A stretch of 64,000 bases of DNA from Acidimicrobiia bacterium (GTDB taxonomy: Bacteria > Actinomycetota > Acidimicrobiia > IMCC26256 > PALSA-610). The stretch is taken from the NCBI GenBank assembly GCA_036271555.1, contig DATBAK010000019.1, positions 1 through 64,000 on the forward strand, given 5' to 3'. Positions 45,591 to 48,845 of the stretch are shown here, piece after piece; position 1 is the stretch's first letter; each line of letters starts with the position of its first letter. The notes beneath the pieces are model-generated. The model was not told where the DNA came from. It did not search any database and saw only the letters and a program-made list of their open reading frames with translations. A program made the position numbers and the translations under genes.

Positions 45591-45606
45591 TACGGTGCGC
45601 CGCGTG
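45591..45606 (+). promoter_or_regulatory. -10 box and leaderless start of the large secreted protein gene
   Basis: TACGGT (45591-45596), 7 nt, then GTG 45604; no ribosome site. The start of the signal-peptide-like segment fits this codon. Confidence 0.5.
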
Positions 45607-48063
45607 GGCCGGGGCGGGTCAGGGGTGGCAAGAGGAGCGCGCGCGGCGTTCGTCGCCGTGGTCGTCTGCGGTTCGACGCTGCCGGGTGGCTCGGCGACGG
45701 CGCGCACGCGCGTCGGCGCGCCGCAACGGCCGGCGCACCGGGCTGGCATCCTCCGTCCGGCGGTCGCGAACCCGGGCCGCGTGCAGCAGATCGCGGGGCA
45801 GGCGGGGTACGCGTTCGACACCGGCACGACGGTGACGGTGAGTACGACGGTCACGGTCCCGACACTGCAGTGCGGCCTCGTGCCGGTGGCCGAGCGATCG
45901 TCGCAACCGGGCCTGCAGCAGACGCTCGAGGTCGGCGGCCAGTACGTGATGGTCGAGTCGTTCTGCGCGCCGAGCAGCGGCGGCGGCTACTCGCAGTTCA
46001 ACCTCATGAACGCGCTGCTGAACGGCCAGCCGTACGACCCGCACGGATTCCTCGGCACGCTTCCCGGTACGCAGATCCAGCTCTCGGAGTCCGTGGACCC
46101 GAGCGCGTTGACCGCGACGATCAGCTCGCCCAGCCAGGGCTTCACGAAGACGATCGTCGTGAACGGTTCCTGGGGTGGCAGCGCGTTCGTCGGCGCGATC
46201 GACTACTCCGAGAGCGCGAACGGCGGCGTGCCTCCGTACAACCCGGTTCCTTTCGCGTCGACGGACGTGAACGGCGGTCCGCTCGGTGCGTACGTCGCGA
46301 CGCATCCGAGGTCGGTGCGGCAGAGCTCGGTGTGGGGCCTGGTCATGCAGGACGAGACGTCGGATGTCGGCTCCGGCGACGCGTTCACGATCACGAACTC
46401 GAACCTCACGTTGCCGACCGTGTCGGTGTCGACGAAGGGCCCGGTCGCGCGTCCGACGAGCGGCACCGCGACGATCGTGTTCACGGTCGCGTTGTCGTCC
46501 GCGCAATCGGATCCCGCGTACCTCGACGACGTCACGCAGGACGGCACCGCGATCGCGGGCACCGACTACGACGCGACGAGCGGCACGCTCGCCTTCCCCG
46601 CGGGGACGACGAGTCGGAAGGTTGTTGTCACCGTGCTCCCGGGCGAGCCGACGACGGATGCGGAGCTCGACTTCCTGCTCGAGCTCTCGAACCCGAGCTA
46701 CGCGTACGTTCCGCAGGGCACCGCGGGCGGCGGCCGCATCCTGACCGGTCCCGCCGTGAGCGCGGTGACCCCGTCGCAGTCGGATGTCGGCCGATTCGCT
46801 CCGACGTGGACGATCACCGGATCCGGGTTCACCGGTGCGACCGCGGTCGGCTTCTACTCGGGCAGCGATCGTCTGTTCCACGAGAACCCGAGCAACTTCT
46901 CGGTCAACGCGGACGGTACGCAGATCGCGACGCACGCAACGCAGGAAGCAGGGCTCGAGAACCTCCTCCACGAGGAGTTCGGCGATCAGAGCAGTTACGC
47001 ACTCGACGTGCGCGTCAGCGTCGGCGACGCGACCTCGGTCGCGACGCCCGCGGACGTGATCACGCTGAACGGTCCGATGATCACGGGCGCGCGACCGGGA
47101 AGCGTCGACCTCAGCGTGCACCCCGGCCCGGCCTTCACACTGAACGGGAGCGGCTTCACCGGCGCGACGTCGGTCGGCTTCTACACGGGTACGACGCGTC
47201 ACTTCCATATCGTCGCGAGTCATCTCACCGTCAACGCCGACGGCACGAAGATCACCACCGCCAACATCGACCCGACCGCCATCGCGCAGATCCTTCAGGA
47301 AGATCTCGGTGATCCGCCGTGGGTGCTCGACGTGCGCGCCTCGACCGGCGCGATCACGAGCAACGCACAGACCATCACGGTCGGAACCGGACCGGTCGTG
47401 AGCAGCGTGACGCCGGCCGAGTCGGATGTCGGCCGGCTCGCGCCGACGTGGACGATCACCGGTTCGCGGTTCACGGGTGCGTCCGCGGTCGGGTTCTATT
47501 CGGGCTCACAGCGGCTGTTCCATCTGGACCCGAGCAAGTTCGCGGTCAGCGCCGACGGCACGCAGATCACGACGCACGCGACCGAGGAAGCGGGCATCGA
47601 GAACATCCTGCACGAGGAGTTCGGCGATCAGAGCCGCTACACACTCGACGTGCGCGTCACCGTCGACGGATTCGTGTCCGCGGCGGGTCCGACCGACGTG
47701 ATCACGCTCGACGGTCCGCAGCTCGTGCGGGCGCGCCCGGCCTCGGTGAACCTCGCGCATCACCCGGGGCCGATCTTCACGCTGACGGGAAGCGGCTTGA
47801 CCGGTGCGACGTCGATCGGGTTCTTCACCGGGTCGATGCGTCACTTCCGCTTCACCGGCACGGTCCTCGAGGTGAGCCCGGACGGCACGCGGCTCACCAC
47901 GAGCAACACGAACGCGAGCCGGATGGCGCAGATCCTGCAGGAGGACCTCGGTGACGCGCCGTGGGTGCTCGACGTGCGCGTCTCCACCGGCGCGATCACG
48001 AGCAATGCCGAGACGATCACCTTCACGAACGGCTCCGCCGCCGGGCCGCAGCAGCGCTTCTAG
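45604..48063 (+). CDS. Large secreted protein with Calx-beta-like domain and ABAB tandem domains
   Basis: An 819-residue exported protein. A basic N-terminus and hydrophobic segment (AAFVAVVVCGSTLPG) form a signal peptide. An N-terminal domain of about 220 residues with no known family follows. A Calx-beta-like segment (VSVSTKGPVARPTSGTATIV, DYDATSGTLAFPAGTTSRKV) comes next. From about residue 385 there are four ~106-residue domains in the order A-B-A-B. A units have SDVGR-APTWTITGS-FTGA and LHEEFGDQS; B units have ARP-SV and QILQEDLGD-PWVLDVR. The IPT/TIG-like sandwich pattern (GSGFTGATSVGFYTG) suggests surface adhesion or glycan binding. There is no sorting signal at the C-terminus. Confidence 0.8.
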   Translation: MGRGGSGVARGARAAFVAVVVCGSTLPGGSATARTRVGAPQRPAHRAGILRPAVANPGRVQQIAGQAGYAFDTGTTVTVSTTVTVPTLQCGLVPVAERSSQPGLQQTLEVGGQYVMVESFCAPSSGGGYSQFNLMNALLNGQPYDPHGFLGTLPGTQIQLSESVDPSALTATISSPSQGFTKTIVVNGSWGGSAFVGAIDYSESANGGVPPYNPVPFASTDVNGGPLGAYVATHPRSVRQSSVWGLVMQDETSDVGSGDAFTITNSNLTLPTVSVSTKGPVARPTSGTATIVFTVALSSAQSDPAYLDDVTQDGTAIAGTDYDATSGTLAFPAGTTSRKVVVTVLPGEPTTDAELDFLLELSNPSYAYVPQGTAGGGRILTGPAVSAVTPSQSDVGRFAPTWTITGSGFTGATAVGFYSGSDRLFHENPSNFSVNADGTQIATHATQEAGLENLLHEEFGDQSSYALDVRVSVGDATSVATPADVITLNGPMITGARPGSVDLSVHPGPAFTLNGSGFTGATSVGFYTGTTRHFHIVASHLTVNADGTKITTANIDPTAIAQILQEDLGDPPWVLDVRASTGAITSNAQTITVGTGPVVSSVTPAESDVGRLAPTWTITGSRFTGASAVGFYSGSQRLFHLDPSKFAVSADGTQITTHATEEAGIENILHEEFGDQSRYTLDVRVTVDGFVSAAGPTDVITLDGPQLVRARPASVNLAHHPGPIFTLTGSGLTGATSIGFFTGSMRHFRFTGTVLEVSPDGTRLTTSNTNASRMAQILQEDLGDAPWVLDVRVSTGAITSNAETITFTNGSAAGPQQRF
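46757..48030 (+). repeat. Tandem duplication of a ~636-bp two-domain unit
   Basis: Unit 1 (about 46757-47392) and unit 2 (about 47393-48030) encode the A-B domain pairs of the secreted protein. Nucleotide identity is high over long blocks, such as CACGAGGAGTTCGGCGATCA in both A parts. The two domains inside a unit are more diverged than the same domain between units, so the pair was duplicated as a whole. Confidence 0.85.
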
Positions 48064-48179
48064 GTAGACCGCCCCGAGTCGCGCCCGCGAGTCGTCGGCT
48101 CGCGTAGCCTGGAGCCGGTTCCGTCACATTCAGGGTGCGCCGGGAAGTCTGGTCGGCACGAGCCGGTGGAGGCGTCCCG

Positions 48180-48845
48180 ATGAGCCGCGACGGATTGCAC
48201 GACGACGGAATGCATCACGACGGAATGCACCGTCCCCACGTGAATGCCGCGCTGCGAGTCTCGCTCGTGAGCGTGGCGTGGACCGTGTGCGCGAGCGCGG
48301 CGTCGATCGTCGTCGGCATCCGCAGCAGTACCGCGGTGCTCGTCGCGTTCGGTGCGATCGGCATCGTCGACGCGATCGGGTCGATCGCGCTGTGCCTCCA
48401 TTTCCGGCGCGGCCTGCGTGACGACGCACTGTCGAGCACATCGGAGCGCGCGGCGCACCTCGTCGTGCTCGTCGGTCTGTTCTCGGTGGGTCTCGGCGCG
48501 ATCGCGGTCGGCGCGGTGCGGCTCGCAATGGGCCGCGCCGGTGAAGCGTCCAACGTCGGTGTCGTGCTCGCGGCGGTCTCGTTGGTCGCGCTGAGCGTGT
48601 TGTCCGCCCGCAAGGTTCAGGTCGCGCGCCGCGTCGGCAGCGCCGCGTTGCGCTCGGACGGCCATCTCTCTGGAATCGGTGCGATGCAAGCCGCCGTCAC
48701 GCTGGCGGGCACCGTCGCCACGCGCGCGTTGGGTTGGACATGGGCCGACTCGGTCGCGACGACCGTGATCGGCTGCGTCGCCGTCGCGCTCGCGATCGCG
48801 ACCTGGCGCGTCGAACGCCGGGCGACGCTCACCGGCCACCCGTAG
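48180..48845 (+). CDS. Cation-diffusion-facilitator-like membrane protein
   Basis: A 221-residue protein with a short His-rich N-terminus (DGLHDDGMHHDGMHRPH) and about six membrane helices. SDGHLSGIGAMQAAVTLAG and ADSVATTVIGCVAVALAI correspond to the CDF core, with Asp residues in the metal position, but the C-terminal cytoplasmic domain is missing. It resembles TMEM163-type cation efflux proteins. The His-rich start may bind zinc. ATG 48180 has GGAGG 8 nt upstream; GTG 48135 would add 15 residues. Confidence 0.72.
   Translation: MSRDGLHDDGMHHDGMHRPHVNAALRVSLVSVAWTVCASAASIVVGIRSSTAVLVAFGAIGIVDAIGSIALCLHFRRGLRDDALSSTSERAAHLVVLVGLFSVGLGAIAVGAVRLAMGRAGEASNVGVVLAAVSLVALSVLSARKVQVARRVGSAALRSDGHLSGIGAMQAAVTLAGTVATRALGWTWADSVATTVIGCVAVALAIATWRVERRATLTGHP

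Follow-up and report, generated by a model that had tools for sequence, protein, structure and literature searches.

A gene in an Acidimicrobiia draft assembly ends in four similar domains in the order A1-B1-A2-B2, behind some 381 residues of other sequence, and raises the question of what these domains are and what a protein assembled from them would do. We analysed the gene in its window, by which we mean the whole 64,000-nucleotide stretch of DNA, and compared its parts with known families, modelled structures and other genomes.

The gene and its product

The gene encodes 819 amino acids on the forward strand (Table 1). The true start could be the GTG at 45604 or another GTG in the same frame, at 45625, with which the signal peptide is tidier. 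Third-position GC is 0.90, as expected of a real gene in a GC-rich genome. Searches of its own genome confined the A/B domains to this single gene copy. Hydrophobicity is highest at residues ~7-29, and past the N-terminus no 19-residue stretch resembling a membrane helix was seen in the whole protein. Judged from its N-terminal sequence only, the protein is likely to be secreted. At the C-terminus, where a tail of about ten residues follows B2, we found no LPXTG motif, transmembrane segment or other recognised anchor, so the protein may lie unattached in the matrix or be retained there by non-covalent contacts.

The neighbouring genes give no functional link: upstream lies an FMN-dependent dehydrogenase, downstream a membrane-like protein without an assignment and a DEAD-box helicase. 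Downstream, window 48135-48845 encodes a hydrophobic protein of 236 residues that is rich in His and Asp at its N-terminus (DGLHDDGMHHDGMH); it has no Pfam match and is possibly a membrane metal transporter.

Table 1. Features of the gene, in window coordinates
Feature	Coordinates	Strand	Basis and remarks
Whole gene	45604..48063	+	open frame of 819 codons plus TAG stop; start GTG 45604 or GTG 45625
Probable Sec-type signal peptide, residues 1-33, ...AAFVAVVVCGSTLPGGSATA/RT	45604..45702	+	cleavage site inferred
N-terminal domain, residues 57-266	45772..46401	+	no database family; weak full-length resemblance to G1 glutamic peptidases; Cys 90, Cys 121
Calx-beta domain, residues ~270-370	46411..46713	+	PF03160, 38.7 bits against a cut-off of 27
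Domain A1, residues 382-489	46747..47070	+	AlphaFold2 pLDDT 86.7, pTM 0.80; repeat alignment
First insertion in A1, ~7 residues, FHENPSN	46876..46896	+	comparison with 17 TIG domains; shared by A1, B1, A2 and B2
Second insertion in A1, LENLLHEEFGDQSSY, helix	46954..46998	+	modelled helix; absent from TIG domains
Domain B1, residues 490-595	47071..47388	+	repeat alignment, identities
Second insertion in B1, IAQILQEDLGDPPW	47281..47322	+	alignment with 17 TIG domains
Domain A2, residues 596-703	47389..47712	+	repeat alignment, identities
Second insertion in A2, IENILHEEFGDQSRY	47596..47640	+	alignment with 17 TIG domains
Domain B2, residues 704-809, then ~10-residue tail	47713..48030	+	repeat alignment, identities
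Second insertion in B2, MAQILQEDLGDAPW	47923..47964	+	alignment with 17 TIG domains

Duplication history of the repeats

With domain borders set at the GP......P starts, A1 and A2 are 74.1% identical and B1 and B2 63.2%, whereas A and B domains share 38.5-43.8%. All domain pairs, including A versus B, score 24-61 standard deviations above shuffles, so their likeness is not due to chance. Both the A-B-A-B arrangement and the greater distance between A and B than within either type, as put forward in the preliminary description, are thus borne out. The GSGFTGA signature that it regarded as common to all four domains is exact in A1 and B1, but reads GSRFTGA in A2 and GSGLTGA in B2.

At the DNA level we found three direct repeats, at 46744/47386 (283 nt, 83%), 47053/47695 (154 nt, 74%) and 47230/47872 (149 nt, 80%). 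Because all three are spaced by 642 nt, the unit that was copied measures 642 bp (214 codons) and not about 636 bp, as had been estimated. The two units have a DNA identity of 0.755 in fixed register. The dN and dS values are 0.18 and 0.49 for A1/A2, and 0.29 and 0.57 for B1/B2; the similar dS in both pairs, with dN below dS, fits one duplication of the pair followed by purifying selection on the protein. On these sequence comparisons, one domain was duplicated to give A and B, and the A-B pair was copied later.

Modelling and profile comparison place the A and B domains near IPT/TIG

The Pfam TIG family (PF01833) gives a sub-threshold match in two of the four domains, with A1 reaching 15 bits against a cut-off of 20.9. 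The AlphaFold2 model of A1, computed from an alignment of four rows (A1 and the other three copies), is confident (pLDDT 86.7, pTM 0.80) and shows an Ig-like sandwich in which a long strand comes after a helix at model residues 70-78. A single-sequence model of the whole protein reached a pLDDT of 33 and was left unused.

Among the chains that we compared as single-domain folds with VIA-align 2, the best match of the A1 model was the first domain of BuSGBP-B (7k44, residues 7-100; Z 9.9), followed by residues 497-582 of cyclodextrin glycosyltransferase (CGTase; Z up to 9.6), BACOVA_02650 (Z 9.6), NFAT/Rel C-terminal domains (Z 7-8) and plexin IPT (Z 7.1). Several of these top matches belong to domains classified as IPT/TIG-type, and the IPT-type matches span Z 7-9.9 over 84-95 aligned residues. 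Since scores of Z 7-8 are common between unrelated sandwiches, we place weight on the matches above Z 9 and on sequence. With Foldseek, the A1 model had no match in the PDB below E 0.001; against predicted viral structures it had one, to a glycine-rich-domain phage protein (E 5.8e-4), and the next was a phage protein with an IPT domain.

Profile comparison agrees with the fold. By hhalign, the four A/B domains align with 17 TIG domains, 15 from the same genome and two from class relatives, over columns 2-103 with a probability of 94.6% and an E-value of 7e-8 for this single pair. The scores below the Pfam cut-off, taken together with the significant profile-profile match, lead us to file the A/B domains, on sequence and model, as a divergent variant of the IPT/TIG-type Ig-like domain and not as members of Pfam TIG. 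They share with PF01833 the Ig-like sandwich, the P......P start, the TITGSGFTGAT.V.F core and the DV.V...G..S end; however, A/B domains are about 107 residues long and IPT/TIG domains about 84. Elsewhere in the same genome, a 4467-residue open frame at the start of a contig (L021, contig C82, 1498-3810) carries nine or more ordinary TIG domains, one after another.

Two insertions distinguish the A and B domains

The two gaps in the hhalign alignment correspond to two insertions that are found in all four A/B domains and are absent from the 17 ordinary TIG domains. The first, of about 7 residues, follows the third strand. The second, of 14-15 residues, lies before the DV.V (LDVR) strand, at a place taken up by a short loop in ordinary TIG domains, and coincides with the modelled helix. 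Both insertions include residues that do not vary among the four copies (R, F, L, E, G, D). The segments LHEEFGDQS and QILQEDLGD, which had been singled out as unlike usual IPT domains, are indeed so: the gaps and the modelled helix together point to a helical insertion in an IPT/TIG-type domain.

To what extent these domains form a sub-family of their own, as the preliminary description suggested, depends on the distribution of the insertions. A domain carrying the two insertions was looked for and not found in 58 genomes from the order, 395 from the class and two sets of 396 and 239 from the phylum (the samples overlap, and no genus mate is among them). Degenerate peptide patterns recovered no A/B relative from 84,980 species and viral contigs, and a whole-protein pattern search of the 84,980 species genomes likewise recovered none. 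Translated searches of plasmids and phages gave no such domain either; in the viral, phage and plasmid collections together no relative of the A/B or N-terminal domains appeared, and phage matches fell on the Calx-beta region alone. Within these limits, which are those of sampling and of the pattern filter, a separate sub-family is what the searches support.

The single match of the A/B alignment search in the 84,980 species (L016) is out of frame in an xseA-like frame, and another (L017) has a stop inside an arginine-rich frame; both are chance matches. Two proteins from class relatives (L018, L019) proved to be ordinary TIG proteins that lack the insertions. In the literature on SGBP-B IPT domains and on proteins combining IPT and Calx-beta domains, we found no description of the A/B domain.

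A Calx-beta domain precedes the repeats

The preliminary description stated that the ~220 N-terminal residues match nothing known. Of the ~381 residues before the repeats, about 100 form a Calx-beta domain, which does match a known family, whereas about 210 are without a database family, as stated, though with a weak likeness to G1 peptidases. Searched alone, the Calx-beta region reached 43 bits in Pfam, with residues 293-366 matching positions 26-99 of the 119 in PF03160, and it was matched by sequence to NCX1 (E 1.9e-7). The NCX1 segment IIDDDIFEED aligns with VLPGEPTTDA here, so that the acidic triplet DDD is replaced by PGE while other acids are partly kept. Calcium binding is therefore not to be assumed from this sequence.

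Matches of the whole protein in its own genome, outside its own gene, fall on the Calx-beta region. On other contigs, about ten more open frames have matches to this part, some of them several in succession; large Calx-beta proteins abound in the genome.

The N-terminal domain weakly resembles G1 peptidases

Residues 57-266 had no match in Pfam or the PDB at E-values up to 10, and no convincing match in genome, plasmid or viral sequences; four candidates (L036-L039) were chance matches, two of them in frames with stops. The Pfam HMM of the G1 peptidases, or eqolisins (PF01828), does not detect the domain. We built a profile from 17 G1 domains of the phylum, a family picked by eye. Against it the segment reached 7.1 bits, more than any of 200 control segments or of 300 shuffles. 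When the number of shuffles was raised to 5000, one of them came up to this value; the reversed sequence scored 0.2. By hhalign at low stringency the alignment is collinear over 176 columns and scores above 300 controls, with a probability of 8%; the global mode gave no useful alignment. The mature protein has just two cysteines (90 and 121), 30 residues apart; the spacing is 29-31 in four G1 proteins that have a pair at this place.

A G1-like fold for this domain has, on these sequence comparisons, about an even chance. The competing explanation is that the domain has an unrelated fold, and that its likeness to G1 peptidases is a coincidence between β-rich proteins; the rest of the architecture would then stand as described. 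The empty Pfam and PDB searches, the low hhalign probability and the choice of the family by eye all speak for it, and it falls just short of an even chance; the score above all sampled controls and the end-to-end alignment argue against it. Three G1 glutamic peptidase domains above the Pfam cut-off are encoded in the same genome (L042, L047, L050), one of which (L047) lies inside an open frame of 899 residues, where several hundred residues precede it.

A proposed stalk and its alternatives

Of the functions considered, we find most likely, although we would give the full proposal about an even chance, that of a modular β-sandwich protein, secreted or on the cell surface, in which the Calx-beta domain and the A-B-A-B domains form a stalk behind an N-terminal binding head. 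The protein would be exported by its N-terminal signal peptide. The stalk would keep the N-terminal domain, possibly a non-catalytic β-sandwich like that of G1 peptidases, off the attachment point, and this domain would serve as the head. The inserted helices would decorate each stalk domain, where they may set the packing between domains or contact partner proteins or matrix glycans.

The closest architectural comparison is with the SGBP-B proteins of Bacteroides (7k44, 5e7g), which share a string of extracellular Ig-like domains, here presumed to be extracellular, and which match the A domain structurally at Z 9.6-9.9, a comparison of single-domain folds alone. In contrast to these proteins, the present one comes from a different phylum, carries the inserted helices, and has neither a polysaccharide-utilisation locus nearby nor a known C-terminal glycan-binding domain. 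IPT-type domains in SGBP-B proteins and CGTases are mostly spacers and not binding sites, which favours a stalk over a series of repeated binding sites. Against the proposal, bacterial IPT and Calx-beta domains are found in enzymes too and not in adhesins alone, and the likeness of the proposed head to G1 peptidases is a low score against a family picked by eye.

The A/B domains could themselves be ligand-binding modules for glycans, similar to CBMs and multiplied for avidity, with the N-terminal domain in a secondary role. The presence of four copies, whose insertions share residues that never vary, would suit such modules, and several of the fold matches sit in glycan-binding or glycan-processing proteins. 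However, tryptophan is rare (0.7% of the protein), the alignment displays no aromatic platform common to the four copies, and the spacer role of the related domains points the other way; we consider this reading unlikely.

Less probable still, and doubtful in our view, is that the N-terminal domain is an active, divergent G1-like peptidase or another hydrolase, with the Calx-beta and A-B-A-B domains as targeting accessories of the kind found in many secreted enzymes. The profile score, the collinear alignment, the cysteine spacing and the true G1 domains in the genome could all be read in this way. Against it, the columns of the catalytic Gln and Glu hold other residues in both the MAFFT and the hhalign alignments, each of them weak, and the NWSGY and SAEWxxEAP motifs are lost. 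All described members of the family strictly conserve the Gln/Glu dyad (PMC3009609). On this sequence, activity as a G1 peptidase is unlikely.

Assignment of the A/B domain to the HpiC1-like cyclases (PF22825; cut-off 27 bits, with 28.3 as the sum for the whole protein) or to the cyanases (17.5-18 bits for C-terminal models at ILHEEFGDQS) is highly improbable, and we reject it, as A1 alone scores 19 bits over positions 28-95 of 174, some 70 of them matched, so that the total is inflated by the repeats, the cyanase scores lie far below their cut-offs (17.5 versus 25, 18 versus 113) over one helix-turn-strand, and the fold matches point to IPT/TIG. A search of the genome for HpiC1-like proteins found no match at E 0.001. 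The helix-turn-strand at ILHEEFGDQS (46954-46998 and 47596-47640) resembles the cyanase C-terminal motif, a likeness that we take as chance or convergence.

Significance

The protein is a diverged form of an already known type of surface protein, with a helix-bearing IPT/TIG domain, and not a new system. What sets it apart is a conserved helical insertion, always in the same position, in a widespread extracellular building block, copied in pairs within a lineage-restricted orphan protein. It is also an annotation trap: over window 46747-48030, two summed repeats lift the protein above the HpiC1-like cut-off, and it could be miscalled a cyclase. Should the N-terminal domain turn out to have a protease fold that lacks the catalytic pair, it would illustrate the reuse of a secreted enzyme fold in binding. 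A more ambitious reading, which we regard as a long shot, combines a new IPT/TIG sub-family, in which the helix is a functional interface that locks domains together or recognises a partner, with a head derived from a G1 peptidase that lacks the catalytic pair. If true, a secreted binding protein would have been made from a retired protease and a duplicated, helix-bearing stalk.
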